Assembly: GCF_009389715.1 (NCBI RefSeq)
Contig: NC_052401.1
Location: 1,166,843 to 1,230,842 of the forward strand
Direction of reading: 5' to 3'
Length of the DNA stretch: 64,000 nt
From: Phoenix dactylifera
Taxonomy: Eukaryota > Streptophyta > Magnoliopsida > Arecales > Arecaceae
The first letter of the stretch is position 1; every line of letters starts with the position of its first letter. This document shows positions 2,990 to 54,753 of this stretch, piece after piece. The position numbers were made by a program, and so were the translations under genes. A model generated the notes under the pieces. It was not told the origin of the DNA and made no database searches. It saw only the letters and a list, made by a program, of their open reading frames with translations.

Positions 2990-3416
2990 CATGTTCCGGT
3001 TCCCGCGGCCACCGAGGGATCAACTCGAGAGAGCGAACGTACTGAAGGGGCATAGGGGAGCGGTGCTGGCCATCCAATTCGACAGGTGCATCCACTGCTG
3101 CCTGAGCTCCGGCAAGTACTGCACCACAACCCCATCCACCACAATCCTTATCAAGCCCTGCAAATCCCACAGCCGCGAAGCCTGCGACGTCCGTAAGCAT
3201 ATCATATTATTCCTCTTCCATTATGACCTTTCCTATGTTTAACCATGACCTAGTAAATTTCTCTTTTATAACTACCAAAATATAGATAAATTTGTATTAT
3301 ATATCCTAACACAGGATAAGGCAAAGCTATGCTCGTACAGCAGAGATCGGCGGGTATTCTTTTGTGCTATCACGACTGGCCGCATCATCAAAAAATTCCA
3401 TAGTCATGAAAGCGAG
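2990..3416 (+). pseudogene. WDR83: WDR83/MORG1 5' exons, decayed
   Basis: WDR83 (MORG1) is a small WD40 scaffold of MAPK and spliceosomal complexes. A GC-rich exon at about 2991-3192 encodes LERANVLKGHRGAVLAIQF, the first WD blade of this family. It then loses the family sequence: the expected CGKDRTIRLWNPH is scrambled by indels, and only fragments such as ILIKPCKSHSREACDV remain. After a GTAAG intron, the next exon (3315-3416, 102 nt) encodes DKAKLCS...RVFF...TGRIIKKFHSHESE, the second blade with its conserved Trp replaced by Cys. No downstream WDR83 exon follows on this strand; the sequence runs into palindrome-arm DNA. It is a non-functional fragment. The family assignment is from remembered conservation and is strong. 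Confidence 0.8.
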
Positions 3417-6231
3417 GTTAGGTTTCTACTTTTTCTTCTTATTTTGTGAATTATACTATTTTTTCTTTCCAAAACTCGACTTAGGATATGTGAGAGATAA
3501 ATACGTCATCCTAATTGATCTCATTTCATATATATTCTCCTTCGACATGGCATGGCAAAAGATTTTGTATATCTGATTAGTGCACACACAAACAGCTCGA
3601 ACGATTTTGCGTTATTATAACATATGTCTAGGATATTAGAAATCTGGTCCACAAATATTAGACATATCGTACTAGATTTTCTATATTCGTGGTCTCTAGA
3701 AGTTCTTGCATTTAGATCTAGTTAAGAGCTATTTAATCTAAGTTTCATATAATCATTTTCCAATATGAGTTATTATACAATCATAGCATATATAAAATTA
3801 TGAAAGATAGAAAATATAAAGATAAAGGAGAAAGAATTAAATTTAACATGGGATATATTTAATAGAGCTGAAAATATCACATCACTAACAAAAAGACAAC
3901 ACTAACACTATATATAACCTTGGAATCGATCAAAGATATGGCAAAGAGTAAAAAATGTGGCACAGAACATACTAAGATTTGTACAAAATGTGCGCTAGCA
4001 ATTGAAGGAGAAGAGGATTAAAATTCAATTTGTTTTTCTTTTTATTATTTTAGTAAGCTATAGCTTACCCAAGAATGTCACCAATTTATGAAAAAATAGT
4101 TAAATTACATTGTAGAACATCTTATCTAAATTAAATGCTTCATAATAACCTCCATTTTGGGTCAAAATACCTTGATTTGTGGTCACAATGTAAATAAAGT
4201 CTACTAGAAAAATATTATTGTCAAATTTTTAATTTGGCCACCCACGACTGAATTAAAGTCAACAATAGCATAATAATATTAAAGCATAAAGAATTCAAAT
4301 TCAAGAAAATGTCACAATATTGAGTTGTGAAAATAAAATCAGATTTATCACTTCAATGAAAAAATGAAAGCAAGTTCCAATAGTGACATAGGCAAAGCAT
4401 CAAATTAAATAATTCGGAGACATAAAAAGTCTTATAGAAAATGAAAACAATTATAAAACCCCCAAAGAAAATTAACACGACTAGACAACCATGCTATGTT
4501 CCAAAAAAATATCAAAGTATTTTAAGTAATATCAAGTGAGCTAAGCAAGATGCATGCAATAGATCTCACCAATCAAGTGCCAAATTTCCATGCATATACA
4601 TTAGACAATTCAAACTCGCTCTAAGAATCCACAAGAAGCTCTCCGTTGTTTTAAATATAGAAAGCATCCTCAATAGCCTTGGATTATGTTCAGGTTCAAC
4701 TTTATCTAATTGTTTTGAGTTCTCCAGCAAGAAAAGTTCAAAGTATAAGGGTCTATCTACCACCACATTGTTCCACCAAGGCAAAAGCATGTACACTTGG
4801 AGCCATTTTCTCCAGAAACTGCACTAGGCAACACATCCTTAAGTCATTATTTATATAAACTGACCATTTAGTTGATAGCTGGACCCACTTGGCCTTGTTT
4901 CATTTGGACAAGAATTAACTAAATCTGACACATTAAGATATATAAAAGTTAATTGAGCTGAAACCAACTTTAATTTATCAAATAATAAACACTTCTTTTC
5001 TCTTAACTTTCTACTCTGTGCTTTTGTTATTCTCTGTGACATCTGCAGGGTGAGACCCTTTAGCATTATTTCATTATGTCAATGAAATAGGTGGTTTGCC
5101 ACAGTTTCTCTAATAGATATTAACAAATAATAAAATTCAAGGTCTATGGACCCTTGAATAAAATAAAAACTCATCTCTGATGTCAAGTACACTAGTCCTA
5201 CCAATAAATTCCACAACTGCTAACAATTTACTTCTGATTTTTTTTTTAATATAAGTGAATTTGAATAAAGAATTAGGGAAAAGTTCTTCCTTCTTCTTTG
5301 AAAGGAGTAAGAGGTTATTTTCCAACACTTGTTCTTGGAACTCATCAAGAACTGCCAATGGCACCTTACATAACCCATCGGTCTCAACTAAGGAAGCCAT
5401 TTAAATTGGTCAAAAATATTGACTGTGTTTTGTAATATGTTATCATGGATGACTAAATTTTTCAATAAAGAAGGCTTTTGTTAACGAGGGAATGCGAATA
5501 CTATTGATTTTCATGTTAATCATGATATGACTATGTTATCTTTCTGATAGATTTTTTTATTGTTGATATGCTAAAGAAAATTTTAAGTATTTCATGAATA
5601 GGGTGAGTTGATCATTGGTTAAATATGATCTAAATTTTTAAAAATCAAATAAGTCAAGTGTTAATTGTTCCCTCTTTATGAGTTAAAAATTTAAGCTAAA
5701 TTTAAATCCTTGTGGCATATTGAATCATGGTATCAGTACTTTGCCTTCTCGGACTTGCTCTTATGAATTGAGGCCAATAATTTTTAAAATAGACCATTGG
5801 TGTCTAATGACCATCATTACATGTTTATTTTGTGAATCACATTTTTAGCCATATAAAAATTTGATTCTAATAAGGTTGGTCTTTATCTTTTGTGGATAAG
5901 CACTCTACCATAATAACTGTATTGGATCTATTTTGTTTCAAGTTCTATCCCAAATATAATTAATTTTAGTCGATCTTGTTGTGAATTGATCCCAATCCGA
6001 TATGGAGTGAACCTACATCAATCTTAGATTTTAGTTAGACACTTATCTAGTACTAATCTTGCATATTTATATAAAATTTTTGATAATTGATCTAAAGTTA
6101 TCTATCACACTGATTTTGATCAAGGAGAATGAGATCTTGGATTTATGTTACTCAATGGGCTGAGCATCTCTAAATTGGAAGGCTTAGATTCTTCAAATTT
6201 TAAGGACGAAATTTTTTTAAGGAGGGGAGAA
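3118..6231. repeat. Left arm of the 8-kb palindrome, copy 1
   Basis: This arm is repeated in inverse orientation at 8081-11196. Homology begins inside the decayed WDR83 exon 2 (gcaccacaacccca), runs through exon 3 and about 2.8 kb of AT-rich DNA, and ends at a PPT-like ggaggggaga next to the core. Readable pairs include 5700-5840 with the complement of 8470-8620, and 4560-4800 with the complement of 9520-9770. The arms differ by scattered substitutions and small indels. The innermost 50 bases resemble the 3' end of a Ty3/gypsy pol gene followed by its polypurine tract. That is an inference from typical plant elements. Confidence 0.88.
5290..5400 (-). pseudogene. Unidentified 37-codon exon, copy 1 left arm
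   Basis: The frame begins ATG and reads MASLVETDGLCKVPLAVLDE, then QEQVLENNLLLLSKKK. It is one of four versions of the same exon, one per palindrome arm. The GTAAAT donor seen in the best version (26033-26143) is lost here. I do not recognise the parent gene. Confidence 0.5.
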
Positions 6232-8080
6232 TGTAAGACCAGGCCCGAAATGGTGAAGATCAAAGATAGACAAATTTAGGTGGGGTTGAAGTAATGGGCC
6301 GGTCTATCGTTCGGGTATCGAGGCAGTGCAAGCCGTCCACCCAGGGATCAACTTGGATCTGAGCAAAAAGGAAGCTAGGACTTTGAACTAAGATCCCTAG
6401 GTCTGGTCTAATTCTGATCACGGACCCGATCAGAGTGGTTCGGGTCGACCATTAGGAGAATTAGAAAGGTCTAAATCTACTCAATTAAGGAGAGTCGGGG
6501 GCTAGTTTTGTTTTTTCTCTTAACCCAAAATGGGGATGAACACGGTCCAAAATGAAGGGACTCGACCCACAATGGATGAACAGGGCTCAAAAGGAATGAA
6601 CACGGCCCACAATGGATGAACGTGGCTCAAAATGAATGGACTCAACCCACAATAGATAAACATGGCCTAAAATGAATGGACACGACCCAAAATGAACTTG
6701 GTCCACAATGGATGAACATGGCCCAAAATGAATAGACTCAGCCCACAATAAATGAACTGGACCCAAAATGAATGGACACTGCCCAAAATGAACATGACCC
6801 ACAATAGATGAGCAGGGCCAAAAATGAATGAATCCGGTCCGAATGATCACAGCCCATAATGGATGAAGAGAACCCAAAATGTATAGACTCATCCCATAAT
6901 GGATACGACCTAACAGGATGAACAAGGCCCGATCTCGGCTCACAATGGATATAGCCCAACAAAATGAATAGAGCCCGAACTCGGCCCATAATGGACACGA
7001 ACCAACGGGGTGAACAGGGCCTGAACTTGGCCCACAGTGGACACGACCCAACAGGATGAACATAGCCTGAACTCAGCCCACAATGGAGAGGCCCAATAAG
7101 ATGAATATGGCCTAAACTCAGCCCACAATGGACACAATCCAACAGGATGAACAGGGCCCGAACTCAGCCAATAATGGACACGACCCAACATGGTGAACAA
7201 GGCCCGAACTCGGCCCACGATGGAGACGGCCCAAAAGAGTTCTTCATCTCGATGAACTCAGAAACAAGGAGGAAGGAGAAAGAGAAGGAAGAGGGATGAG
7301 GGAAGAGAGGAGAGGATCCGGTGGTGACCGGGTTGGGCGACTGACAACAATAGCGGCCGACGGCTGCTGCGGCGACCGGCGAGAAGAGGAAAATAGGGGG
7401 CGTCCTCAGTTTGGGGTCGAGATAGAGGAAGGAGGCTCAAATTATCTAGGAACAGAAGATCAAGGGGAAGGGGAGCTCATCGGTGTGTCGCCGAAGGGGA
7501 GGGTTCTCGGGCGAGGGTAGCTGGTCCGACGGGCTAGCAGCAGCAGCGCTAGTGCTCCCAATGAAAAAATGAGCAGCAATACTTGGGTCAAAAAAATAGA
7601 GCAGCAGAATAGGAGGGTTTTTAAGGGGTGGCGCTCGGCCAGGGCGGCACGCCGACTATCGGAGGAGGAGGGAGGAGAATGCTTGGCGGTGGATCAACCA
7701 TAGGGGGATGGGATTTTATAGGAGGGTTTCCAAATGGGATCGGTTCATTCACCACCACGATTCTCACAGCGGTTGAGTGGGATCGGCGGCTGTTCATGCG
7801 GTCGCGGGACTATCGCAGATCCTGCCCCCATTACGCTCGAGGAAGGTGGAGAAGAGGATCGCGATCACAATCTTCTATTCTTCTTCTTCTATCCAAATTG
7901 GACTGAAGTCGGTTGGGCCTGCCGACTTCAGTCCAATATGGCCCATTCCGAACTTGGTCTTACATTCTCCCCTCCTTTCTTCGCAGTCCTCTATTCTGCT
8001 TCTTCTATCCAAATTGGACTAAAGTCGGTTGGGCCTGCCGACTTCAGTCTAATATGGCCCATTTCGGATCTGGTTTTATA
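6232..8080. mobile_element. LTR-like palindrome core, copy 1
   Basis: The core starts TGTAAGACCAGGCCCGAAATGG right after a polypurine stretch. At 7961-7964 it reaches GGTCTTACA, the inverse of its start, followed by ttctcccctcc, the inverse of the polypurine stretch. A tandem duplicate of about 116 bp then repeats this end to 8080. TG...CA ends, an adjacent polypurine tract and a TGTAAGACC start are typical of plant Ty3/gypsy LTRs, so it may be a solo LTR of about 1.73 kb. It is odd that the polypurine tract occurs on both sides, facing inward. The interior holds a tandem array (6530-7235) and a GC-rich stretch at 7258-7530 with no convincing gene. Confidence 0.6.
6530..7235. repeat. Degenerate tandem array, 40-46-bp units
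   Basis: Imperfect units of the form cccacaatggatgaac, then ggcccaaaatgaatggac, grade into longer units with cacgacccaacaggatgaac and gggcccgaactc. About 16 units are visible. On the minus strand the units read as repeated GRVHCGPSSGPVHPVG-like peptides because the array is periodic. The matching array in copy 2 lies at 23690-24375 with different unit order and variants. Confidence 0.85.
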
Positions 8081-11000
8081 TTCTCTCCTCCTTAAAAAAA
8101 TTGTGCTCTCGATATTTGAAGAATCTAGGCCTTGCAATTTAAGGATTCTTAGCCCATTTAGTAACAAAAATCCAAGATCTCATTTTCCTTGATCAAAATC
8201 AGTGTGATAGATAGCTTTGGATCAATTATCAAAAATTTCATATAAACTAGCAAGATTAGCACTAGATAAGTGTCTAACTAAAATCTAACATTGATGCAGG
8301 GTCACTCCAAATTGGATTGGGATCAATTCACAATAAGCTCGACTAAAATTAATTATATTTGGGATAGAACTTGAAATAAAATTGATCCAATACAATTATC
8401 ATGGTAGAGTGCTGATCCATAAAAGATAATGACCAACCTTATTAGAATCAAATCTTTATATGGCTAGAAATGTGATTCACAAATGAACATGTAATAATGG
8501 TCATTAGACACCAATGGTCTATTTCAAAAATGATTGGCCTCAATTCACAAGAGCAAGTCCGAGAACACAAAGTATTGATACCATGATTCAATATATCATA
8601 ATGATTTAAATTTAGCTTAAATTTATAAATCATAAAGAGGGAACAATTAACACATGACTTATTTGGTTTCTAAAAAATTTAGATCAAATTTAACCAATGA
8701 TCAACTCACCCTAGTCATGAAATGCTCAAAAATTTTTTTAGCATATCAACAATAGAAAAATCTATCAGAAAGATAACATAGTCATATCATGATTAACCTA
8801 AAAATCAACAAGATCCACATTTCCTTATTAACAAAAGTCTTCTTTATTGAAAAATCTAGTCTTCGATCATAACATATTACAAAACACAGTCAATATTTTT
8901 GACCAGTTTAAATAACTTCTTTAACTGAGACCGATGGGTTTCGTAAGATGTCGTCAGCAGTTCTTGATGAGTTCCAAGAACAAGTGTTGGAAATGACCTC
9001 TTGCTCCTTTCAAAGGAAAAGATAGAATTTTTCTCTACTTCTCTATGCAAATTCACTCATATTCAAAAAAAAAAAGAACAATCAGAAGTAAATTGTTAGC
9101 AAATATGAAATTTATTGGTAGGACTAGTGTGCTTGACATCAGGGATGAGTTTTCTTTTTATTTAAGTGTCTATGGATCTTGAATTTTAATATTTGTTAAT
9201 TTCTATTGGAGAAACTGTGGTAACCTATCTATTTCAGTGACATAATGAAATAATGCTGAAGGGTCTCGCCCGCAGATGTCAAAGAGAATAACAAAAGCAT
9301 AGAGTAGAAAGTTAAAAGAAAAAAAAGTGTTTATTATCTGATAAATTAAAGTTGGCTTCAGCTCAATTAACTTTTATATATCTTAATGTGTCAGATTTAG
9401 TTGATTCCTATCCAAATAAAACAAGGTCAAGTGGGTCCAGCTATCAACTAGATGGTCAGTTTATATAAATAATGACTTAGGGATGTGTTGCATAGTGTAG
9501 TTTCTGAAGGGAATGGCTCTAAGTGCGCATGCTTTTGCCTTGGTGGACAATGTGGTGATAGATAGACCCTTACACTTTGAGCTTTTCTTGCTGGGGAGTT
9601 AAAGCAATTAGATAAAGCTGAGCTTAAACACAATCCAAGGCTATTAAGGATGTTTTCTATTTTTAAAACAACGGAGAACTTCTTGTGGATTCTCAGAGTG
9701 AGTTTGAATTGTTTAATGTATATGCAAGGAAACTTAGCACTTGATTGGCGAGATCTATTGCATGCATCTTACTTAGTTCACTTGATATTACTTACAATAC
9801 TTGATATTTTTCTGGAACATAGTATGGTTGTCTAGTTGTGTTAATTTTCTTGAGGGTTTTATGATTGTTTCCATTTTCTATAGAACTTTTTATATCTCCA
9901 AATTATTTAATTTGCTGCTTTGCTTGCATCACTATTGAAATTTGCTTCTATTTTTTCAGTGAAGTGATAAATCTGATTTTGTTTTCACAACTCAATATTC
10001 TGACATTTTTCTAAACTTGAATTCTTTATGCTTTAATATTATTATTCTATTGTTGACTTTAGTTCAGTTGTGGGTGGCCAAATTAAAAATTTGACAATAA
10101 TAATTTTTTGGTAGAATTTAGATTTACATTGTGACCACAAAACAACGTATTTTGACCCAAAATGGAGGTTACAGTAAAGCATTTAATTTTAATAACCATG
10201 TTCTATAATGTACTTTAACTATTTTTTCATAAATTGATGGTATTCTCGGGTAAGCTATAGCTTACTAGTATAATAATAAAAAACAAACTGAATTTCAATC
10301 CTTTTCTCCTCCATTTGCTACTTGCGCGCACATTTTGTATGAATCTTAGTATGTTTTGTGCGAGCTTTTTTACTCTTTGTCATATCTTTAATCGATTCCA
10401 AGGTTATATATAGTGTTACTGTTGTCTTTTTGTTGGTGATGTGATATTTTCAGCTCCATTTAAATATATCCTATGTTAAAATTAATTCTTTCTCCTTTAT
10501 CTTCATATTTTCTGTTTTTCATAATTCTGTATATGCTGTGATTGTATAATAATTCATATTGGAAAAATGATTATATGAAACTCAAATTAAATAGCTCTTA
10601 ACTAGATCTAAGTGCAAGAACTTCTAAAGACCATGAATATAGAAAACCTAGTATAGGATGTCCAATATTTGTGGACCAGATTTCTAATATCCTAGACATC
10701 TGTTATAATAATGCAAAATCGTTTGAGCTATGTATGTGTGCACTATCGAATATACATAATCTTTTGCCATGCCATGTTAAAGGAGAATATATATAAAATG
10801 AGATCAATCAAGATGATGTATTTATCTCTCACATATGCTAAGTCGAGTTCTGAAAAGAAAAAAATAGTATAAGAAGAAAAAGTAGAAACCTAACCTCGCT
10901 ATCATGACTACGGAATTTTCTCAGGACGCGGCCAGTCGTGACATCTCAAATGAACACCTGCTGATCTCCACTGCATGAGCATAGCTTCGCCTTATCCTAC

Positions 11001-11196
11001 GTTAGGATATATAATACAAATTTATCTATATTCTGATAGTTATGAAAGAGAAATTTACTAGATCTTGGTTAAACATAGAAAAGGTGATAATGGAAGAGGA
11101 ACAGTATGATAGGATATAAACGTCGCAGGCATTGGGGCTGTGGGATTTGCAGGACTTGATAAGGACTTGTGGTGGGTGGGGTTGTGGTGCACCCTC
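8081..11196. repeat. Right arm of the 8-kb palindrome, copy 1
   Basis: Inverse copy of 3118-6231. It starts at the core with ttctctcctccttaaaaaaattg, the complement of the polypurine tract, and ends in the WDR83 exon 2 remnant (gttgtggtgcaccctc). Beyond 11196 homology to the left arm stops. It also matches 25190-28328 in the same orientation. It contains a decayed version of the 37-codon exon near 8930-9032 with ATG changed to ATA. Confidence 0.88.
10895..11196 (-). pseudogene. WDR83: WDR83 exon 2-3 fragment, inverted
   Basis: The 102-nt exon at 10895-10996 has intact AG and GT borders and encodes DKAKLCSCSGDQQVFI, a stop, then DVTTGRVLRKFRSHDSE. The TGA replaces the conserved Trp codon of the WD blade. 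The exon 2 remnant follows at about 11109-11196 (caagtcctgcaaatcccaca on the minus strand). This is the mirror image of 3118-3416. It is separated from the next WDR83 block (11832-12660) and in the wrong order relative to it, so no functional mRNA can form. Confidence 0.8.
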
Positions 11197-11199
11197 CCA

Positions 11200-11831
11200 A
11201 ACTGAAACTAAAGCAAACAATCAAAAGGCTTAATGGACAAACTCATGAATTTTAGGATTTGAACAAATCTCAAGAAGGTGCACGGCTGGAGTTCTCACCA
11301 CTGCGTAAGGCCACCTAGCCAGAATCCCACATGAAGTTAATGATGAGACTGGCTCCATTGCGTGTGCGCGTTTGGACACCTAAAATTACATGCCTCAAAT
11401 GGCAGTCAGTAAATTATGCATAACTCAACACCTGAAAGACTTAAACAAAGAAGATAGATGCATGTGTCAGAATTTATATTACAAGAATAAGAAAATCCCA
11501 GAAACTTCATAGTTGATTTATGTTGCCATGCATACCAAGGCTGTGCCTTAAGCTAAATATTAGCATCTTCATAAGAAGGGCCCAGTACTTCAAGTTGTCT
11601 TATGCTGCCATGCATACAAAGACTGCATGTTTGAAGCTAAAATATTAGCATCTTCATAAGAAGGTCATTGAACGATGGAGGACAGCTGGGTAAGAAATAA
11701 AGAAGCCTGGTATAGATTGCTAGGCATAAAAACGGGAATAACGTCTTTATATAAACTACATGTCTTACCACTACTAAATATCTAAACATCAATTTCAAAA
11801 TAATCAAAATGAAGTATGGAAGAAAAATTAC
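11200..11831. other. Non-coding stretch between WDR83 blocks
   Basis: No gene seen. The sequence atattagcatcttcataaga occurs twice (about 11557 and 11640), a short direct duplication of about 80 bp that includes tgccatgcatac. The last WDR83 exon would be expected here on the minus strand but I could not find it. Copy 2 has the same stretch at 28330-28968. Confidence 0.4.
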
Positions 11832-12660
11832 CACGGAGGCATGTGCTCGGAATCTCGAAACCACAGATGCATCTACTAAATCCCAACAGAAAATAAACCC
11901 ATCCTCAGACCCACCAGGAACATGTGCATCAGTGTTGGCCAGGTAGCAATCCATCTTGTAAGACTATGAAAAAGAAATTCACAGTAAACAGCAGTATCAC
12001 ACCACTGCGAAAGCAGCATAAACCTTAACAGCACCGGGCAACTGAAAAGAGAGAGAAGGGGCGCTGGAGGGAGGGGGTGGATGGAAAGTAAACACTGAAG
12101 TAACAAGATCAGTGGATGACATGACAACAAAATAAACTACAGAACGTGTCTGTCAAACCTTGCAGGTATGCCCCTTGTATTCTTGCAAAAGTTCCCCGGT
12201 GGACCTAATAATAGAAGCAAATCATAAATAAGCATGTATGAGATATATCTCAATTTTCTAGGAGATAGTGAAGGATATTACCTGTCCAGCAGACGTAGGG
12301 TAGAATCCAAGCAACTTGGTAAGACACAGTTATCATCATTCGATAATGAGACACAGTTCACAGACTGCCCCAAGTTGTCAACAAGTTCTCTAGTACATGG
12401 AATTGAAAGAAACCTTTAGAACAACATCCAAAGTGAAATAAACTTTATACTGGATAAACAGCCTTTTTTAAACAGAAATATATCTTATTGTAGTAGTGGG
12501 GCTTGACCATACTCACCTACCCAATCCGAATGTCAAATGTGCGAATGGTCCCATCAACGCTTACAGCAATAATTTCAGTTTTTGTCAAACAGAGAGACAT
12601 TACACTGTCTTGACTCTTGAAATGGCAGTCCCAAACGATCCTACCATTTTGGCATTCCGA
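11832..12660 (-). pseudogene. WDR83: WDR83 internal exons (blades 3-6), incomplete
   Basis: Four exons read in order on the minus strand. About 12640-12521 encodes WDC, a deletion, then DSVMSLCLTKTEIIAVSVDG and TIRTFDIRIG. Exon 12389-12282 (108 nt) encodes VDNLGQSVNCVSLSNDDNC and SCLDSTLRLLDR. Exon 12204-12159 encodes STGELLQEYKGHTCK. Exon 11963-11832 (132 nt) encodes TDAHVPGGSEDGFIFCWDL and VDASVVSRFRAHASV. Splice borders are GT-AG here. The first exon has lost the STEPIQIIDTF-like piece of the blade. The 5' exons lie on the wrong side and the final exon was not found, so this is a rearranged pseudogene block. Copy 2 keeps the last three exons at 28969-29455. Confidence 0.85.
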
Positions 12661-12740
12661 ACGTCTCGCAACGTTAGAGACTTTTCGCTTTCCCAAACTC
12701 TTCCTCTCCGACTCCAATTACCAACACTACTCCTCCCATC

Positions 12741-12750
12741 TATAAATATG
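12741..12750 (+). promoter_or_regulatory. TATA box of the EC1 pseudogene
   Basis: tataaatatg lies 83 bases before the EC1 start codon, in a pyrimidine-rich GC-poor context, well placed for a core promoter. The pseudogene was therefore duplicated or moved as genomic DNA rather than as a retro-copy. Confidence 0.55.
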
Positions 12751-12832
12751 CCCTGCCACAACCTTCCTTACCCTCACACCATCATGTATGCCGCTCCCTT
12801 TGCTTGAAAAAGCTTTTAGGAGATCCACAAAC

Positions 12833-13276
12833 ATGTCGCCCGTTCAAAAGCTTGCCCTCTCATTCGTGATCGCATGCCTCATTGGGCTTGCTAATGCCCG
12901 CGAGCTCTCCTCCATGGAACCTGCCATTAGCCCTCTCGAGGCCCGGATTGCCTCCAACGAGGGCTAGTGGACTGCTGGAACGCACTGCTGGAGCTGAAAT
13001 CATGCACCGGCGAGATCTTGCTCTTCTTCATGAACGGCGAGTCGTACCTGGGAGTCGACTGCTGCCGCGCCATCCAAGTCATCACCCGCCAGTGCTGGAC
13101 CACGATGCTCCAGTCCCTCGGCTTCACTCCCTAGGAGGGCGACATTCTCAGAGGATACTGCGATGCCGAGGCCGCTCCTCCTCCTTTCGCCGTTGTGTCA
13201 CTGCATCCCCACTCCACGTCGTCTCCCTCTGTGGCCGAAGCCGCACTCGCGTTTGCCGGTCCGGCGGCGGCCTAGC
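12833..13276 (+). pseudogene. EC1: Egg-cell-secreted protein EC1, frameshifted
   Basis: EC1 proteins are small Cys-rich proteins (prolamin-like domain) secreted by the egg cell that activate sperm at double fertilisation. The ATG at 12833 opens a signal peptide (KLALSFVIACLIGLANA) and REL...EARIASNEG, then stops at TAG 12965 because of a small indel. Shifting frame restores LVDCWNALLELKSCTGEILL, FFMNGESYLGVDCCRAI, ITRQCWTTMLQSLGFTP and EGDILRGYCDAEAAPPP, with the six Cys of the family. A second in-frame TAG sits at 13132, just before EGDILRGYC. The frame ends at TAG 13276 after an Ala/Pro-rich tail. Two independent lesions make it a pseudogene. It lies only in copy 1; a partial inverted relative is at 20276-20457. 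Confidence 0.88.
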
Positions 13277-14095
13277 GCTTCACTGGGCTTCCGTTTCCAC
13301 GAGCGATGGGGAGGGTCCTTCGATATCAGTCATGCTTCTTTGTTTACTCTCATCATGTCCTGATGTTAAAAAGTTCTGCATTGTCTACTGTTGTCATGGC
13401 TTCAATAATTTAATAAGATCGTCCTATTTCTCATTAAAGTCTTTTGGAGGTTGATAACACGATTAGCGTCATAGCTTGGGCTTGCTGCATCATATTTTAC
13501 TAAAGCTTGTATATTTCTGCTGCTTTGAGGATATTCTTCTTATTCATGCAATTGAAGGACAATATGGAGTAATTTACTACATCAGGAATGGATGAAAAGA
13601 ATTTATACGCTAGCAAGAAGGATAAAAAACAAGCTAAGAAGGAATGTTATTGGTACCATGAGTCAACTTAATCAAGTAATGCAACTGATGTGTTTAATTG
13701 CATAAGTCATGATCAGCAGTGAAAAGTTAATTTGGAAATAAGGCTACTGTTTACATAGAAGGTTGATTATGCAGTTCAGATTTCCTTAAATCAACTTCTT
13801 GTCAATGTAAGTTCTCTAACAAAATAGCAAGGATGACATTGCAAGCATCCAAAATATTATGTTATTCGGACCACAATTTCAGGGTTGAACATTCAACTAA
13901 CTGGAGTTAGCATGTAGAGACAAGTGTGTTATAGAATTTCCATATTGAAATGTTATATTCACATTTTTTTCCCTTGCTTCTCACCAGTTTCTTTTTTGCT
14001 TCTACTTCTACAGGAAGAATAGAAGTGACAGGGGATATGCAAAATTTAAGAAAAATTAATAACTGACAGCAGTCGCCTAAATATTTTAGGTCAGG
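13277..14095. other. EC1 3' flank, no gene seen
   Basis: AT-rich DNA, probably the decayed 3' UTR of EC1 followed by intergenic or intronic DNA of the MSL fragment. The frames at 13163-13454 are continuations of the EC1 exon in wrong frames. Confidence 0.4.
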
Positions 14096-16240: not shown

Positions 16241-16263
16241 GAAACAGGGATGCCGAGTTTATA

Positions 16264-17826: not shown

Positions 17827-20042
17827 AAAAAGAAACTACCAACAATGTTAGTATTTAAGGGGAAAAAGAAGTTGCACCAGAAGAGTAACACTGCATAATC
17901 ACATTGTACAAACAATTAAAACTAAATAATAAGAATTCTGGTGATTGTCACAACTGACAAACTTAAGCTACATACCAATATACCACCTACAGCACTACTA
18001 CTATAAAATAATAAAGATGACCTGACAAATCTTTTCAGCAGCATATTTTATGTCATGGATTCACAGTGATCTGTGATGAGAAAAAAAGTGCTGCTGGCAA
18101 GAAATAAAGGTAGACATCAAACCAGAGTTTTTCTGGCAATAATATGGAGATGATGTAGGCCTCAGATCGCGATTGCTTAAAATTTTCCCTCAACCAAGAG
18201 TTTCAGGATCTGTCATCCAGGGTTCCTTCGAATAAGTTGGGTTGACAAAGCTTTTATCTCAAGTTCATATAATGTGATCACTAATTCTTTCGAGAATGTT
18301 TGACATGCAGGAATCTTGTGTTGAAATTCATGGGGAAAAGAAAGAGATTTTATGTAAGGTGGAAAAGTGGAAGCTTATGATGGACTAAACATTGTTATTA
18401 TTGATCACGAGCTTCCCATCTTGAAATTTTTGCTGATTACTCAAAATTTCACATGTTCCTCCAGACGTTTGATATGAAATAGGAAATCTGTGTTTGTTGA
18501 ATTTTATATCCAATGGCACAAGATGGCATAGCAGGTTGCAGGTTAAAAGCCTCAAAATGCTAAGTAAGTTATGTGATGGATTAGGCCAGTTACATTGGAC
18601 TCATGTATCATGCTTCTAGGATACGTATTTTCCTCATAACCGAGGGGCCTGAAGTCGAGCGCAGTTGGAAGTGGGTACTTCTAACTGTTTGTTTTTATGT
18701 AACAAGCCCGAACACTAAAATATAAGTTTCCCATCCACCCAAAAAGGCAAAAGTTTTTTTTTTGTTGTTTGAGAAAGAGAGGGGGGAGTGGATAAGCAAA
18801 AATTTAATGCAAATTTAATGCTCTCCCACTCGCTCCGTCCTTTGAAATGAACCATTTAAGTGAATAATATACTGACCATTACTGTATATAATCTAACGAT
18901 GTATGTGGGAAAAATTGCGCATCCTATGCACCAATTTCGTGCAAAAGAAACAGCTGAAGTGGCAATAACTTGACTTCAGTACAGTGAAACAAGCATCTGA
19001 TTAGAACCCAAGTTCAGACATGTCAGACACTTACAAGCAAACAAATGTGCCCCTAGAGTATCTCAGCATCATTTCGGACATGGCATTCATGCCTTTTGTG
19101 AGCACAACTTTTCTGTAAAGTGTTTGAAATCACCATGAGTTTTCAAATGAAAGGTATTTCAACTACAAAATGGGAAGCACAAACTCATGTTTAAAGAAGT
19201 GCATCGTACTGATTCAGAATGATATCATGACCAGATAGTTCACGCCCAAGGCATCCACTTCAAGAAGAGAGTATGGGTCATCTTTTCGTTCAAATGCATG
19301 AAATTGAATTGATTATGATAAAACATGGTCAAGGAAGGTGCAATGCAAGAAGTTCAAGATGAAGACCGCTTAATCAGGTATTTGTTGAAGACTGAAGACA
19401 GGAGAACAAAGATTTGGGTTGAATATTGATAGATGAGGAGAAAAGAATGAAGGGGTATTTGAAGGGCACTAATTTGAGAACAGTATATGAATTCTGAAAA
19501 TGCCTAAATTATCACAAAAGAAGCCAGAAATCTGATACGCGAACTATAGATTGAATATTAGCACTACTTAGAGATCAAAGTGGTTTAAAAGATATGTCTA
19601 TGCATGACTCCAGGAAAAAATGGAAAGACGGTAATGAGAAAGAACATATAGTTGAGCATGCTGATGAGCAAGGAGTTGCGAAAGATAAAGAACACTTCAT
19701 CAAAATCAAAACTGGGAAGCAAACAATCTGTGGAGATCGGAAAGTAGGGCAATTTTCTATACCATGGAAGCATATCATAGGATCATAAACTTTTTCTCTT
19801 AGAGATATTGCCTGGAATAAACTTCAACAGAGACCAATATAGTTGGGCCATTCTTCATATCTTGGTCTAGAAGGGAAGACAATCTTGTAATGCAAGTACA
19901 TATACATAGAACATGGTGCTAACAAGTTTATGTTAAGATCCCATATCCAAACCCTATATTGAAAAAGAAATCGATGAAGAAATGAAGAATGGTCTATGTC
20001 AAAAAACCGTATGTACAATACACTGCTCACAGATGCACATAT
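17827..20042. other. Duplicate of MAK16 intron 4, no gene
   Basis: Collinear with 33740-36009, which is MAK16 intron 4 in copy 2. It includes a 64-codon frame at 19594-19788 (plus) that is also open in copy 2 at 35558-35752. I see no recognised domain. Confidence 0.6.
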
Positions 20043-20275
20043 AAGGTAAAATATTCTGCAATGATAAGACAACACATATATAAATCAGCATATGAACTAA
20101 AGTATCCATAATTAATTTAGATCCAAGACAAGACAAGTACATCAGTATAAGCCCAATCAAACTTTGTAGCAACGCTCAAGTAAACCCCACCAATGTAATT
20201 GGAAATAGGAGTGGCACCGGACTTATTCACATAAAGAAGCGGACTTGGGGATCCCAGGTACTTGGAGTCCCAGGC

Positions 20276-20457
20276 ACGACTCCCAGGTATGTCTCGCCGC
20301 TCATGAAGAAGAGCAAGATCTCGTTGGTGCATGATTTCAGGTCCCGCAGTGCATTCCAGCAGTCAACTAGCCCCCCGTTGGAGGTGATCCGGGCCTCGAA
20401 AGGGCTAATGGCGGGTTCCACGGAGGAGAGCTCGCGGGCATTGGCAAGCCCAACGAA
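20276..20457 (-). pseudogene. EC1: EC1 fragment fused to a WDR83 exon
   Basis: On the minus strand this encodes VGLANARELSSVEPAISPFE, ARITSNGGLVDCWNALRDLK and SCTNEILLFFMSGETYLGV, then diverges (VPGTPST). It lacks both the frameshift of the copy-1 EC1 and most of the mature domain. Its 5' end abuts, head to head, the WDR83 exon at 20456-20548 on the other strand, near caacgaagctatg. It has no start codon and no C-terminal half, so it is a fragment. Confidence 0.85.
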
Positions 20458-20548
20458 GCTATGCTCGTGCAGTGGAGATCGGCAGGTGTTCTTTTGGGAT
20501 ATCTCAACTGGCTGCCTCATTAGAAAATTCCGTAGTCATGATAGCAAG
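20456..20548 (+). pseudogene. WDR83: WDR83 exon 3, truncated at its 5' side
   Basis: Encodes KLCSCSGDRQVFFWDISTG and CLIRKFRSHDSK with the WD blade Trp intact, followed by a GTTAGG donor. The acceptor and first codons are replaced by the EC1 fragment. It forms the outer end of the left palindrome arm in copy 2. Confidence 0.8.
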
Positions 20549-22419
20549 GTTAGGTTTCTACTTTTTCTTCTTATTTTGTGAATTATACTATTTTTTCTTT
20601 CCAGGACTTAAGATATGTGAGAGATAAATGCATCATCCTGATTGATCTCATTTCACATATATTCTCCTTCAACATGGCATGGCACAAGATTATGTATATT
20701 CGATTAGTGCACACACAAACAGCTAAAATGGTTTTGCGTTATTATAACAGATGTCTAGGATATTAGAAATCTGGTCCACAAATGTTAGATATCCTATACT
20801 AGATTTTCTATATTCATGGTCTCTAGAAGTTCTTGCACTTAGATCTAGTTAAGAGCTATTTAATCTAAGTTTCATAAAATCATTTTCCAATATGAGTTAT
20901 TATACAATCACAGCATATACAGAATTATAAAAGACAGAAAATATGAAGTTAAAGGAGAAAGAATTAAATTTAACAAGGGGTATATTTAAATGGCGCTGAA
21001 TTTATGACATCACCAACAAAAAGGCAACAATAAAACTATATATAACCTTGGAATCGATCAAAAATATGGCAAAGAGTAAAGAAGGTGGCACAGAACATAC
21101 TAAGATTCGTACAAAATGTATGCTAGCAATTGGAGGAGAAGAGGATTGAAATTTAGTTTGTTTTCCTTTTTTTATTCAAGTAAGCAATAGCTTACCCAAG
21201 AATGCCACTAATTTATGAAAAACTAGTTAAAGTACACTGTAGAACATGGTTATCTAAATTAAATGCTTCATGGTAACCTCCATTCTGGGTCAAAATATCT
21301 TGATTTGTAGTCACAATGTAAACCTAAAGTCTGCCAAAAATGTTATTGTCAAATTTTAAATTTGGTCACCCACGACTGAACTAAAATCAACAATAGAATA
21401 ATAATATTAAAGCATAAAGAATTCAAGTTTAGGAAACCGTCACAATATTGAGTTGTGAAAGCAAAATCAGATTTATCACTTCACTGGAAAAATGGAAGCA
21501 AGTTCCAATAGTGACATAGGCAAAGCAGCAAATTAAATAATTCGGAAATATAAAAAGTTCTACAAAAAATAGAAACAACGATAAAATCCCCAAGGAAAAT
21601 TAACACAACTAGACAACCATGCTATGTTCCATAAAAATATCAAGTGTTTTAAGCAATATCAATTGAGCTAAGTAAGATGCATGCAATAGATCTCGCCAAT
21701 CAAGTGCCAAGTTTTCGTGCATATACATCAGACAATTCAAACTAACTCTGAGAATCTACAAGAAGCTCTCCGTTGTTTTAAAAATAGAAAGCATCCTCAA
21801 TAGCCTTGGACTGTGTTCAGGTTCAGCTTGATCCAATTACTTGAACTCTCCAGGAAGAAAAGTTCAAAGTGTAACGGTCTATCTACCACCACATTGTTCC
21901 ACCGAGGCAAAAGCATACGCACTTGGAGCCATTCCTTCCAAAAACTGCACTATGCAACACATCCCTAAGTCATTATTTATATAAACTGACCATCTAGTTA
22001 ATAACTGGACTCACTTGGCCTTGTTTCATTTAGACAAGAATCAGCTAAATCTGACACATTAAGATATATAAAAGTTAATTGAGCCGAAGCCAACTTCAAT
22101 TTAGCAAATAATAAACACTTCTTTTCTCTTAACTTTCTACTCTATGCTTTTGTTATTCTCTCTGACATCTGAAGGGTAAGACCCTTCAGCATCATTTTAT
22201 TATGTCAATGAAATAGATGGCTTACCACAATTTCTCCAATAGAAATTAACAAATAATGAAATTCAAGGTCTATGGACACTTGAATAAAATGAAAACTCAT
22301 CCCTGATATCAAGCACACCAGTCCTACCAATAAATTCCACAATTGCTAACAATTTACTTCTATTTTTTTTTTTTTTGAATATGAGTGAATTTGAATAGAG
22401 AAGTAGGAAAAATTTGTAC

Positions 22420-22530
22420 CTTTTTCTTTAAAAGGAGCAAGAAGTCATTTTCTAAAACTTGTTCTCGAAACTCATCAAGAACTGCCAACGGCACGTTACG
22501 AAACCCATTGGTCTCAACTAAGGAAGCCAT
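22420..22530 (-). pseudogene. Unidentified 37-codon exon, copy 2 left arm
   Basis: Open from ATG (MASLVETNGFRNVPLAVLDE, then FREQVLENDFLLLLKKK) to a GTACAA donor. It corresponds to 26033-26143 on the opposite arm. The parent gene is not recognised. Confidence 0.5.
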
Positions 22531-23370
22531 TTAAACTGGTAAAAAACGTTGACTGTGTTTTCTAATATGTTATGATGGAAGACTAGATTTTTCAATAAAG
22601 AAGGCTTTTCTTAATAAGGGAATGTGAATATTGCTGATTCTCAAGTTAATTATGATACGACCATGTTATCTTTCAGATAGATTTTTCTATTGTTGATATG
22701 TTAAAGAAAATTTTGAGTATTTCATGATTAGGGTGAGTTGATCATTGGTTAAATATGATCTAATTTTTTAAGAAACCAAATAAGTCATGTGTTAATTGTT
22801 CCCTCTTTATGATTTATAAATTTAAACTAAATTTAAATCTTTGTGGCATATTAAATCATGGTATCAATACTTTGCCTTATCGGACTTGCTCTTGTGAATT
22901 GTGCCCAATCATTTTCGAAATAGACCATTGGTGTTTAATGACCGTCATTACATGTTCATTTTGTGAATCACATTTCCAGCCATATAAAGATTTGATACTA
23001 ATAAGGTTGGTCATTATCTTTCGTGGATCAGCACTCTACTAGAATAATTGTATTAGATCCATTGTATTGGATCAATTTTATTTCAAGTTCTATCCCAAAT
23101 ACAATTGATTTAGTCGATCTTGTTGTGAATTGATCCCAATCCGATCTAGAGTGAACTTGCATCATTCTTAGATTTTAGCTAAACACTTATCTAGTGCTAA
23201 TCTTGCTAGTTTATATGAAATTTTTCATAATCGATCCAAAGTTATCTATCGCACTGATTTTGATCGAGGAGAATGAGATCTTAGATTTATGTTAATGGGT
23301 CGAGCATCTCTAAATTGAAGGCCTAGGTTCTTCAAATTTCGAGGACGAAGTTTTCTTATGGAGGGGAGAA

Positions 23371-25189
23371 TGTAAGACCGGATCCGAAATGGTGTAGATC
23401 AAAGATGGTCAAATCTAGGTGGGGTTGAAGCAATGGGCCAATTTACCGTCCGGATATCGAGGCAGTACAGGTCGTCCACCTAGAGATCAACTTGGATCTG
23501 AGCAAAAAGAAAGCCAGGACTTTAAACTAAGATCCATAGGTCCAGCTTAGAGAGAGAATCTCGGTCCAATTCTTGCTTTGATCATGATCACAGGCCCGGT
23601 TTGAGTGCGGCCCAACCATTAGGAGAAAGGTCTACATCTACTCGATTAAAGAAAGTCAAGGGCTAGTTTTGTTTTTCCTTTTAGCCTAAAACGGGGATGA
23701 ACACAGTCCAAATGAATGAACTCGGCCCACAGTGGATGGATAGGGCCCAAAATGAATGAACACATTTCAAAATGGATGAATGGGGCCCAAAATAAATGGA
23801 CTCGGCCCACAATGGATAAATAGGGCCCAAATAAATAGACACGACCCAAAATAAACACGGCCCACAATGGATGAACAGGGCCCAAAATAACTAGACTCAG
23901 CCCACAATAGATGAACAGGGCCCAAAATGAATGGACATGGCCCATAATAGATGAGCAGGGTCAAAAATGAATGAACTTGGCCCAAATAATCATGGCCTAT
24001 AATAGATGAACAGGGCCTAAAATGAATAGACTCGTCCGACAATAGATACAACCTAACAGAATGAACAGGATCCGAACTCGGCCCACAATGGACACGGCCT
24101 AACATAATGAACAGGGTGCAAACTCAGCCCATAATGGACACGGCCCAACATGGTGAACAGGGGCCGAACTCAGCCCAAAATGGATACAGCCCAATAGGAT
24201 GAACAGGGCCTGAACATGGCCCACAATGGATACGTTCCAATAGGATAAACAGGGCCCGAGCTCGGCCCAAAATAGACATGGCCCAACACAATAAACAGGG
24301 CTTGAACTCGGCCCACAATGGATACGACCCAACATGGTGAACAGGGCCCAAACTCGACCTACGATGGACACGGCCCACAAGAGTTCTTTATCCTGATAAA
24401 CTCAAAAAGGAGGAAAGGGAAAGAGAAAGAAGAGGGAAGAGGGAAGAGAGGAAAGGATCCGATGGCGGCCGAGCTGGGCGGCTGACGGCAGTAGTGGCCG
24501 ACGGCTACTGTGGCGACCGACAAGAAGAGGAAAACCGAGGGCGTCCTCGGTTTGGGGCCGGGACAGAAAAAGGAGGCTCGGATTATCTAGCAATAGAAGA
24601 ACAAGGAGAAGGGGAGTTCACTGGTGAGTTGCTGGAGGGGATGGTTCTCGGACAAGGGTAGCTAGTCCGACAGGCTAGCGGCGGCGGCGGCGCTTCCGAC
24701 AAAAAAATGAGTAATGGAACAAGAGGGTTTTCAAGGCATGGCGCTTATTGGCCATCGAAGGGAGAAGGAGGGAGGAAAGGGAGGAGAACGCTCGACGGTG
24801 GATCAACCGTAGGGGGGCAGAATTTTATAGGAGGGTTTCCAAACTGGGTCGACTCATTCACTACCACAATTATCACAACGGTTGAGCAAGATCGGCGATT
24901 GTTCAGGCTGTCATGGGGCTGCCACGGAACCTACCCCTGTTACGCCCGAGGAAGGTGAAACAGAGGATCGTAATCGCAATCCTCTGTTCTGCTTCTTCTA
25001 TCCAAATTGGACTGAAGTTGATTGGGCCTATCGACTTTAGTCCAATATGGCCCATTTTGGCCCTGGTCTTACATTCTCTCCTCCTTTCTTCATGATCCTC
25101 TATTGTGCTTCTTCTATCCAAATTGGATTAAAGTAGGTTGGGCCTGCCGACTTCAGTCCAATATGGCCCATTTTGGGACTGGTCTTATA
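23371..25189. mobile_element. LTR-like palindrome core, copy 2
   Basis: Counterpart of 6232-8080. It begins TGTAAGACCGGATCCGAAATGG after ggaggggagaa. It ends in two tandem units of about 110 bp, each closing with ggtctta(c/t)a and then pyrimidines. It holds the tandem array at 23690-24375 and the GC-rich stretch at 24405-24700. If it is an LTR, it belongs to the same Ty3/gypsy-like family as the copy-1 core. Confidence 0.6.
23690..24375. repeat. Degenerate tandem array, copy 2
   Basis: About 16 units of the ggcccacaatggatgaacag / gggcccaaaatgaatgga type, then longer units with acacggcccaacatggtgaac. The unit order is rearranged relative to 6530-7235. Confidence 0.85.
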
Positions 25190-26032
25190 TTCTTCCCTCT
25201 TTAAAAAAATTGTCCTCAAGATTTAAAGAATCTAGACCTTCCAATTTAGAGATGCTTAGCCCATTGAGAAACATAAATCCAAGATCTTATTCTTCTCGAT
25301 CAAAATCAGTGTGATAGATAACTTTGAATCAATTATCAAAAATTTCATATAAACTAGCAAGATTGGCACTAGATAAGTGTCTAACTAAAATCTAAGATTG
25401 ATGCAGGTTCACTCTAGATCGGATTGGGATCAATTCACAACAAGATCGACTAAATTAATAATATTTGGGATAGAACTTGAAATAAAATTGATCCAATACA
25501 ATGGATCTAATACAATTATTAGGGTAGCGTGCTGATCCATGAAAGATAATGACCAACCTTATTAGTATCAAATCTTTATATGGCTGGAAATATGATTCAC
25601 AAAATGAACATGTAATGATGGTCATTAAACACCAATGGTCTATTTCAAAAATGATTGACCTCAGTTCACAAGAGCAAGTCCGATAAGGCAAAGTATTGAT
25701 ACCATGATTCAATATGCCACAAAGATTTAAATTTAACTTAAATTTATAAATCATAAAGAGGGAAAAATTAACACAAGACTTATTTGGTTTCTTAAAAATT
25801 TAGATCATATTTAACCAATGATCAAATCACCCTAATCATGACATACTCAAAATTTTCTTTAGCATATCAATAATAGAAAAATCTATCTAAAAGATAACAT
25901 AGTCGTATCATGATTAACCTGAGAATCAACGGTATTCACAGTCCCTTATTAACAAAAGCCTTCTTTATTGAAAAATCTAATCTTTCATCACAACATATTA
26001 CAAAACACAGTCAATTTTTTTTACCGGTTTAA

Positions 26033-26143
26033 ATGGCTTCCTTAGTTGAAGCCGATGGGTTTCGTAACGTGCCATTGGCAGTTCTTGATGAGTTCCGAGA
26101 ACAAGTGTTGGAAAATGACCTCTTGCTCCTTTCAAAGGAAAAG
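26033..26143 (+). pseudogene. Unidentified 37-codon first exon, best copy
   Basis: ATG at 26033, open for exactly 37 codons (MASLVEADGFRNVPLAVLDE, FREQVLENDLLLLSKEK), followed by a clean GTAAAT donor. A further conserved stretch lies about 600 bases downstream at 26700-26950, with frames such as KQLDKAEPKHSPRLLRMLSV and LNCLMYMHGNLAFDWRDLL, and is also present in all four arms. This looks like exons of a host gene captured in the palindrome. I do not recognise the gene and no complete frame can be assembled. Confidence 0.45.
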
Positions 26144-28027
26144 GTAAATTTTTTTCCTACTTCTCTATTCAAATTCACTCATATTCAAAAAAAAAAGAAC
26201 AATCAGAAGTAAATTGTTAGCAATTGTGGAATTTATTAGTAGGATTGGTGTCCTTGACATCAAGGATGAGTTTTCATTTTATTCAGGTGTCTGTAGACCT
26301 TGATTTCATTATTTGTTAATTTCTATTGGAGAAACTGTGGTAAGCCACCTAGGTCATTGAAATAATGAAATGATGCTAAAGGGTCTCACCTTGCAAATGT
26401 CAGGGAGAATAACAAAAGCATAGAGTAGAAAGTTAAGAGAAAAGAAGTGTTTATTATTTGCTAAATTAAAGTTGGCTTCAGCTTGATTAACTTTTATATA
26501 TCTTAATGTGTTAGATTTAATTGATTCATGTCCAAAGGAAGCAAGGCCAAGTGGGTCCAACTATCAACTAAATGGTCAGTTTATATAAATAATGACTTAG
26601 TGATGTCTTGAATAGTGCAGTTTCTGGAGAGAATGGCTCCAAGTGCATATGCTTTTGCTTTGGTGGAACAATGTGGTGGTAGATAGACCCTTACATTTTG
26701 AACTTTTCTTGTTGGGGAGTTCAAGCAATTGGATAAAGCTGAACCTAAACACAGTCCAAGGCTGTTGAGGATGCTTTCTGTTTTTAAAACAACGGAGAGC
26801 TTCTTGTGGATTCTCAGAGTGAGTTTGAATTGTCTGATGTATATGCATGGAAACTTGGCATTTGATTGGCGAGATCTATTGCATGCATCTTACTTAGCTC
26901 ACTTGATATTACTTAAAATACTTGATATTTTTCTGGAACATAGCATGGTAATCTAGTTGTATTAATTTTCCTTGAGGGTTTTATTATTGTTTCCATTTTC
27001 TGTAGAACATTTTATGCCTCTGAATTATTTAATTTGTTGCTTTGCCTGCGTCACTATTAAAACTTGCTTACATTTTTCCACTAAAGTGATAAATCTGATT
27101 TTGTTTTCACAACTCAATATTCTAAATGTTTTCCTAAACTTGACTTCTTTATGCTTTAATATTATTATTCTATTGTTGACTTTAGTTCAGTCGTGGGCGG
27201 CCAAATTAAAAATTTGACAATAACATTTTTCTGGCAAACTTTAGGTTTACATTGTGACCACAAATTAAAGTCTTTTGACCCAGAATGGAGGTACTGTGAA
27301 GCATTTAATTTAGATAACCATGCTCTACAATGTACTTTAACTATATTTTCATAAATCGGTGGCATTCTTGGGTAAGCTATAGCTTACTAGAATAATAAAA
27401 AAGAAAACAAACTAAATTTCAATCCTCTTGTCCTCCAATTGCTACTTGCGCACATTTTGTACGAATCTTAGTATGCTCTGTGCCATCTTCTTTACTCATT
27501 ACCATATCTTTAATCGATTCTGAGGTTATATATAGTGTAAATGTTGCCTTTTTGTTGGTGGTGCGATATTTTCAGCTCCATTTAAATATATCCCATATTA
27601 AATTTAATTCTTTCTCCTTTATTTTCATATTTCTTGTCTTTCATAATTTTGTATATGACGTGATTGTATAATAACTCATATTGGAAAATGATTATATGAA
27701 ACTCAGATTAAATAGCTCTTAACTAGATCTAAGTGCAAGAACTTCTAGAGACCACGAATATAGAAAACCTAGTGTAGGATGTTTAATATTTGTGAACCAG
27801 ATTTCTAATATCCTAGACATTTGTTATACTAACGCAAAACTATTTGAGCTATTTGTTTGTGCACTAATCGGATATACATAATCTTTTGCTATGCTATGTT
27901 GAAGGAGAATATATATGAAATAAGATCAATTAAGATGATGTATTTATTTCTCACATATGCTAAGTCGAGTTCTAGAAAGAAAAAATAGTATAATTTACAA
28001 AGTTAGAAGAAAAAGTAGAAATCTAAC

Positions 28028-28328
28028 TTCGCTATCATGACCACGGAATTTCCTGATGACACGCCCAATCATGACATCCCAAAAGAACACCTGTCGATTT
28101 CCAATGCACGAGCATAGCTTCGCCTTATCCTGCATTAAGATATATAATACAAAGTTATCTATATTCTAATAGTTATGGAAGAAAAATTTACTAGCTCTCG
28201 ATTAAATATAGAAAAGGTGATAATGGAAGAGGAACAGTATGATAGGATATAAATGTCAAAGGCTTCGCGGCTGTGGGATTTGCAGGACTTGATAAGGACT
28301 TGTGGTGGGTGGGGTTGTGGCGCACCGT
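28028..28328 (-). pseudogene. WDR83: WDR83 exon 2-3 fragment, copy 2
   Basis: The 102-nt exon at 28028-28129 encodes DKAKLCSCIGNRQVFFWDV and GRVIRKFRGHDSE with intact AG and GT borders and no stop, unlike its copy-1 partner. The exon 2 remnant at about 28250-28328 is decayed in the same way as at 11109-11196. Confidence 0.8.
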
Positions 28329-49794: not shown

Positions 49795-49856
49795 CCCCTC
49801 GCTCCGCTCTGCTTCCCTCGTTAAACCCAGGATCATATCAAAGTCATCAATCACCG

Positions 49857-54750: not shown

Positions 54751-54753
54751 ACT

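Follow-up and report, generated by a model that had tools for sequence, protein, structure and literature searches.

The question raised by a 64,000-nucleotide stretch of the Phoenix dactylifera genome (NC_052401.1, positions 1,166,843 to 1,230,842; hereafter the window) is whether two palindromes with WDR83-like exons in their arms form an undescribed regulatory locus whose hairpin RNA silences the parental WDR83, as the original prediction had it, or record another history. Self-BLAST of the window confirmed two palindromes with arms of about 3 kb around a core of about 1.8 kb. The arms of palindrome A (3120-6253 against 11191-8059, inverted) share 88.5% identity and those of palindrome B (20454-23392 against 28122-25168, inverted) share 89.9%, and the unmatched centres measure 1805 nt in A (6254-8058) and 1775 nt in B (23393-25167). 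The four arms are as follows.

3120-6253, plus strand: left arm of A, with, from outside to inside, a partial WDR83-like exon 1, an intron, exon 2, about 2.8 kb of further sequence, and a polypurine tract with an LTR-like start
8059-11191, minus strand: right arm of A, the self-BLAST partner of 3120-6253
20454-23392, plus strand: left arm of B, beginning at the WDR83-like exon 2
25168-28324, minus strand: right arm of B, with a paired part (25168-28122) and an overhang (28123-28324) that has no partner in B

A second repeat search, covering palindrome A, recovered these same arms as 16 blocks that were 83-92% complementary, and a chance origin of the arms is excluded because the collinear match spans 3 kb. 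Palindrome B had been drawn as inverted arms reaching 28328; the inverted arms are real, but the paired part stops at 28122, and 28123-28324 (exon 1/intron 1) is unpartnered because the left arm of B begins at exon 2. Similarly, WDR83 exons had been placed at the outer end of every arm, whereas part of exon 1 together with exon 2 is present in three of the four arms and the left arm of B has exon 2 only, the place of exon 1 being taken there by a different gene fragment (about 20277-20453). The exons in the arms of A (splice borders by eye) and the later WDR83-like exons outside both palindromes are:

exon 1 part to about 3195 and exon 2 at about 3320-3417, plus strand: left arm of A
exon 2 at about 10880-10989 and exon 1 part at about 11111-11191, minus strand: right arm of A
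12633-12520, 12379-12281, 12206-12168 and 11960-11814, minus strand: later exons outside A, within 11814-12633
29445-29350 and 29097-28966, minus strand: later exons outside B, within 28966-29445

The approximately 2.8 kb of the left arm of A inward of exon 2 is without recognised coding. Both palindromes, along with MAK16 sequence, lie inside a larger tandem duplication whose outer ends, by self-BLAST, are 536-733/20043-20238 and 17527-20045/33437-36009.

The polypurine stretch predicted at the inner arm ends was found: AAGGAGGGGAGAA adjoins TGTAAGACC, with inverted copies at both sides of the core, and it reads as a retrotransposon polypurine tract. The core has TG...CA ends and a polypurine tract outside, as an LTR does, with the tract inverted on both sides. 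Its features are:

6232-7964, no strand assigned: LTR-like core of A, with ends TGTAAGACC...GGTCTTACA
23371-25073, no strand assigned: LTR-like core of B, with ends identical to those of A
6219-6240, plus strand: 22-mer of polypurine tract and LTR start in A, exact match
7956-7977, minus strand: exact inverse of this 22-mer, a candidate fold-back point of the inverted duplication
7865-8093, no strand assigned: 113/116-bp tandem duplication at the right core end, common to B (24974-25202)

B holds the 22-mer at 23358 and 25065 with 1 mismatch, and additional inverted copies with 3 mismatches are located at 8072 and 25181. Degenerate 20/40/46-bp tandem arrays occupy about 6534-7234 inside the core of A. 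Self-BLAST at E up to 1e-10 gave no second core copy inside either palindrome, and inspection by eye gave no primer-binding site or target-site duplication of the core, which is followed by the inverted polypurine tract; a tRNA-Met primer-binding site near 5728 was dropped as a partial match alone, judged by eye. Pfam gave nothing credible on two core ORFs (best ECR1_N, E 0.16), none of 4227 Rfam families reached its gathering score, and no tRNA genes were found.

Since the palindrome was duplicated along with ordinary flanks, which act as an internal control, past methylation should be readable here from sequence alone. Between A and B, the arms differ by 453 transitions (ts) and 176 transversions (tv) over 5994 positions, the core by 264 and 68 over 1788, and the flanks, a comparison set that includes exons, by 173 and 133 over 6235. 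Relative to the flanks, transitions were 2.7-fold higher in the arms and 5-fold higher in the core (ts per site, arms vs flanks, P = 5e-34), and transversions per site were 1.4-fold higher in the arms (0.029 vs 0.021, P = 0.005), so that ts:tv in the arms was 2.57 and differed from that of the flanks (P = 4e-6). All three cytosine contexts were affected, with changes at 80/156 CG, 74/212 CHG and 298/1678 CHH sites in the arms vs 51/431, 25/446 and 94/1786 in the flanks. In the duplicated MAK16 segment the rise was mainly at CG (20/65; CHG 8/147, CHH 50/719). When singletons of the four arms were polarised and summed, 248 were G>A/C>T vs 95 A>G/T>C. The excess was constant over the 3 kb of arm (r = 6e-5, P = 0.998). 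The core, the would-be unpaired loop of a hairpin, was lower than the arms at CG (65/181) and no lower at CHG (71/175) and CHH (127/630); this match in CHG/CHH rate counts against a hairpin reading, as does the presence of C>T-type singletons in the partnerless exon 1/intron 1 overhang of B (8 in 199 columns, vs 6 in the left and 2 in the right arm of A).

At the outer edge of the right arm of A, the one outer edge testable, change-point analysis placed one further feature:

11074-11152, no strand assigned: end of the transition excess

For all C sites the change point was 11134 and for non-CG sites it was 11078 (support 11074-11104), with 0/300 permutations as strong in either case; CG sites alone showed no significant change (40/300), and for transversions 59/300 permutations were as strong. 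The non-CG change point falls short of the palindrome edge by 87-117 bp, and the non-CG excess is down to background within about 120 bp of that edge. In the outermost 322 bp of this arm, where the exon 1 part, intron 1 and exon 2 lie, 25 transitions were counted, vs 8 in the adjoining 329 bp beyond the edge (P = 0.002); transversions numbered 11 vs 7 (P = 0.35). A change point inside the palindrome edge, the absence of a significant change at CG sites alone, and transversions that are also somewhat raised in the arms are further observations against a hairpin reading. Compared in this way, the copies show a C-to-T pressure in all three contexts, CG, CHG and CHH, which in its non-CG part stops near the palindrome edge; the footprint resembles that expected of long-lasting cytosine methylation in all contexts, as judged from mutations, and it fits methylation by self-directed siRNA.

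We propose that a broken WDR83 copy (exons 1-2 and the following intron), with a retrotransposon polypurine tract and an LTR at its end, was duplicated in inverted orientation about this LTR. Fold-back copying primed from the LTR's inverted ends is the most likely route, as suggested by the exact 22-nt inverted repeat that bounds the core. Later, the palindrome and neighbouring WDR83/MAK16 pieces would have been duplicated in tandem while the arms were still nearly identical, as the site patterns indicate, and both palindromes have since decayed with no visible constraint. Transcription of the inverted repeats may have given hairpin RNA that was diced to siRNA and directed dense methylation in cis, like that of PAI1-PAI4 in Arabidopsis, and this methylation would wear away the very hairpin. 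We give this whole history, from LTR-centred inversion through tandem duplication to hairpin-siRNA self-silencing in cis, about an even chance.

Hairpin-siRNA self-silencing is favoured, with transposon-type heterochromatin around the LTR as a strong rival. According to the latter, to which we assign roughly one chance in three, the arms and core became methylated on account of their LTR-retrotransposon content, through spreading and self-sustaining methylation of the CMT/MET1 type, and the inversion plays no part. The LTR-like core with its polypurine tract, the CHG and CHH rates of the core and the hypermutated unpaired overhang of B all agree with it. The ts:tv of the arms is also close to that in wheat, where in-silico work of the same logic reported 2.8 in TEs vs 1.9 in introns/UTRs with equal transversions (PMC2996936). 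That report likewise describes a CG/CHG/CHH transition excess without transversion excess, although for TEs in general, whereas here one palindrome pair with an edge is concerned. Moreover, the footprint is also seen outside the palindromes: in two further repeat pairs of the window ts:tv is similar, at 26:9 and 23:9 (about 250 columns each), and the CHH rates are above those of the arms (28/79 and 20/81). The LTR pair 54326-54750/58349-58773 is identical (0 differences) and therefore uninformative as a control. Against transposon-type heterochromatin, the excess stays level with distance from the LTR across 3 kb, takes in the gene sequence of intron 1 and exon 2, and drops off at 11074-11152 rather than where exon 2 meets intron 2, near 10880. 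No credible Pfam match was found in 6 of 71 stop-free arm pieces (at least 45 aa, picked by eye; the best, DUF6762 at E 0.092, fell short of its cut-off), a weak test that does not establish the absence of TE coding.

A live regulator, in which hairpin siRNAs silence the working WDR83 in trans under selection, is improbable. The arms do hold WDR83-like exon 1-2 sequence, and long pairing stretches persist: counted from the arm alignment with G-U included, 93-94% of ungapped positions pair in both hairpins, with 45-52 uninterrupted helices of at least 21 nt per hairpin and strand. This long inverted repeat of gene sequence could fold as a hairpin transcript, and to that extent the predicted read-through hairpin RNA stands, in imperfect form; its WDR83 content is another matter, as the exons make up only ~100-190 nt of ~3 kb per arm (about 6%, splice borders by eye) and are damaged, with a stop in exon 2 of the right arm of A. 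The four arms have near-equal numbers of singletons (108-123 each) in a star-like pattern, and appear to have drifted largely independently. Partial inverted ARR17 duplicates in poplar are reported to act in this manner (PMC9636151), but for the palindromes here the proposed control of live WDR83 is unsupported and lies outside the best explanation.

It is still less likely that the arms are merely older than the flanks or are an assembly artefact. Their identity of about 90% lies below the 94-97% of the flanks, but greater age is rejected because transversions differ little, only 1.4-fold against 2.7-fold for transitions, and each arm has its own changes, unlike an assembly duplication. A transposon with giant terminal inverted repeats and captured WDR83 exons, suggested by long inverted arms with gene fragments at their ends, is least probable and was rejected, as no target-site duplication was seen by eye at the outer ends and A and B share one tandem duplication instead of being separate insertions, while the B arms end at unequal places and the 6/71 pieces tested held no transposase.

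The locus is not of an undescribed kind, as comparable loci have been reported (PMC2708354, PMC3203196, PMC13213937, PMC9636151). Arabidopsis PAI1-PAI4 is likewise a natural inverted gene repeat, with non-CG methylation described as coextensive with shared sequence identity and partly maintained by dicer-dependent small RNAs; the PAI repeat is expressed and directs methylation to unlinked copies of the gene, whereas the palindromes here are broken copies with an LTR-like loop whose methylation is deduced from mutations alone (PMC3203196). The VIM4-VIM2 gene palindrome of Arabidopsis Cvi is reported to produce siRNA and transcripts with a stem-loop, and to bring about methylation in cis at non-CG sites, but its stem is near-perfect and acts in trans, while the palindromes here are about 10% diverged and without a known target (PMC13213937). 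Rice inverted pseudogene pairs share the inverted pieces and loop, and in the example reported the stem gave hairpin small RNAs with none detected from the parent gene; that stem is 185 nt, against about 3 kb here, where the evidence is genomic sequence (PMC2708354). The poplar ARR17 duplicates are also partial inverted gene copies in a repeat-rich region, there in sex regions, but with 24-nt siRNAs and parent-gene methylation reported (PMC9636151). A further Arabidopsis inverted duplication is reported with 24-nt RNAs (PMC350667). WDR83 was absent among the matches listed for plant inverted repeats and siRNA, and a literature search joining inverted repeats, RNA-directed DNA methylation, deamination and hairpin found none, although the footprint may still be published.

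The palindrome pair is likely a decayed example of an already known type of self-silencing repeat. More tentatively, and with roughly one chance in three, it may be a sequence-readable fossil of inverted-repeat-directed methylation in all contexts that lasted millions of years, was bounded near the repeat edge, and was self-limiting because deamination erodes the directing hairpin. If the footprint tracks the inverted repeat and not the LTR, old hairpin-siRNA loci could be found and dated without RNA data, and such loci would ruin their own pairing; if this is general, the history of siRNA hairpins would be readable from the genome itself.

Self-BLAST of the window confirmed, with small corrections, the predicted pair of palindromes with inverted arms of about 3 kb around a core of about 1.8 kb:

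3120-6253 and 8059-11191, arms of palindrome A (A-left, A-right), centre of 1805 nt
20454-23392 and 25168-28122, arms of palindrome B (B-left, B-right), centre of 1775 nt

The arms of each palindrome were 88-90% identical, separate repeat finding on A alone gave arms in agreement with these, and inspection of the outer palindrome ends by eye showed no target-site duplication. The polypurine stretch predicted at the inner arm ends was present, directly before TGTAAGACC, which on the + strand occurred in the 64-kb window only at the two core starts, while GGTCTTACA occurred only at the two core ends. In A, the joint 22-mer formed an exact inverted repeat (6219-6240 and 7956-7977). From the sequence, rather than a database match, we take the core to be a plant LTR and the polypurine stretch its tract. 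Since a single LTR-like core has this tract, inverted, on each side, the inversion would be explained most simply by copying that began at the LTR's inverted end and ran back over the same arm.

Both palindromes belong to a larger tandem duplication, in which 536-733 matches 20043-20238 (self-BLAST) and 17527-20045 matches 33437-36009, MAK16 sequence. The MAK16 exons (33228-38902, minus strand) match residues 22-255 of the human protein, whose first residues were not found there, and the 3' part of the gene is duplicated at 17524-20045. Both tandem copies share the palindrome and a 113-bp core duplication; therefore, the palindrome formed before the tandem duplication. The four arms are almost star-like: among 2878 aligned columns, 2319 were invariant, 465 were singletons (108-123 per arm), 27 had more than two bases and 67 were two-to-two sites (33 A versus B, 20 left versus right, 14 cross). 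Thus, the arms were nearly identical at duplication and drifted later, perhaps with slight exchange within palindromes, to judge from their sequences. Uncorrected divergence was 306/6235 in the flanks (aligned duplicate sequence outside the palindromes) and 629/5994 in the arms, which at the wheat rates quoted in PMC2996936 (5.5e-9 for introns, 1.6e-8 for TEs) corresponds to ~4.5 and ~3.3 million years, respectively, borrowed rates that give the scale only.

The window also contains the following, of which the ABA/WDS and chromodomain matches point to a plant source:

44873-45181, thioredoxin-domain exon
49704-50438, ASR-type (ABA/WDS) gene in which a 33-bp tandem repeat encodes a YGDGGY-rich stretch; a histidine run is also encoded
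54326-58773, LTR element, a recent insertion since its 425-bp repeats are 100% identical
56745-58400, chromodomain ORF of this element

When the tandem copies were compared, the mutational footprint was unusually readable. Transversions per site were 0.0213 in flanks, 0.0294 in arms and 0.0380 in the core, and transitions 0.0277, 0.0756 and 0.1477, with the transition excess at cytosines of all contexts (arms versus flanks: CG 0.51 versus 0.12, CHG 0.35 versus 0.056, CHH 0.178 versus 0.053). In the MAK16 duplicate, transitions were raised mainly at CG, the pattern expected of gene-body methylation. C>T singletons, polarised by the four-arm majority, fell at 20/43 CG, 23/72 CHG and 171/719 CHH positions. 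Further from the core, the transition excess was no lower, but it stopped at the right edge of A/B (palindrome end, 11191); at no other edge does aligned sequence continue beyond the palindrome. With all C sites the change point fell at 11134 (support 11074-11152), and with non-CG sites at 11078 (support 11074-11104), with 0/300 permutations as strong in either case; at this edge neither transversions (59/300) nor CG sites alone (40/300) changed significantly. Footprint logic of this in-silico kind was already published for wheat TEs (PMC2996936).

The footprint fits inverted-repeat silencing in cis of the PAI1-PAI4 or VIM4-VIM2 type, a reading to which we give an even chance. According to PMC3203196, methylation of the Arabidopsis PAI1-PAI4 inverted repeat is coextensive with the shared sequence, and its non-CG part is partly kept by dicer-dependent small RNAs; PMC13213937 describes siRNA and non-CG methylation in cis at the VIM4-VIM2 palindrome. 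Several observations speak against this reading: CHG and CHH rates in the core, the loop of the hairpin, are as high as those of the arms; the 200-bp overhang that lacks a partner in B is also affected; the non-CG stop point lies ~90-120 bp inside the palindrome edge; and two unrelated repeat pairs in the window have similar transition:transversion ratios and higher CHH rates. Heterochromatin around the LTR is therefore a serious, if somewhat less likely, rival as the cause. These short pairs (46678-46953/52814-53091 and 47430-47703/47753-48018, ~85% alike), with high ratios and high CHH transition rates, served as controls.

The original prediction placed WDR83 exons at the outer ends of all arms; in the four-arm alignment this held for a WDR83-like exon 2, while exon 1 was partial in A-left, A-right and B-right and wanting in B-left. 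Its place in B-left is taken by a presumably egg-cell-secreted-protein-like fragment, which matches the Prolamin-like Pfam family weakly and below its cut-off. Two copies of this fragment, 89% identical and in opposite orientation, lie at 20277-20464 (fused to WDR83 exon 2 and bearing the match) and 12872-13057, where the ORF had no Prolamin-like Pfam match. B-left exon 2 matched PDB chain 9s2f_WD (WD repeat domain-containing protein 83, E 1.6e-11) only in seventh place, after designed WD proteins and PAF-acetylhydrolase beta chains, so the name is owed mainly to tblastn with human WDR83, which located exons 1-2 in the arms and more WDR83-like exons on the minus strand directly outside each palindrome. 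The WDR83-like exons are damaged. One of them (12633-12520) lies in ~2.6 kb found in duplicate A only (12486-15108), the counterpart of which duplicate B may have lost.

The proposal that the palindromes silence the parental WDR83 in trans found no support. With G-U counted, the hairpins would still pair at 93-94% of ungapped positions and form 45-52 helices of at least 21 nt; therefore, siRNA production from them would be physically possible. Most probably, the palindromes are an inverted-repeat silencing locus, of an already known kind, that has decayed.
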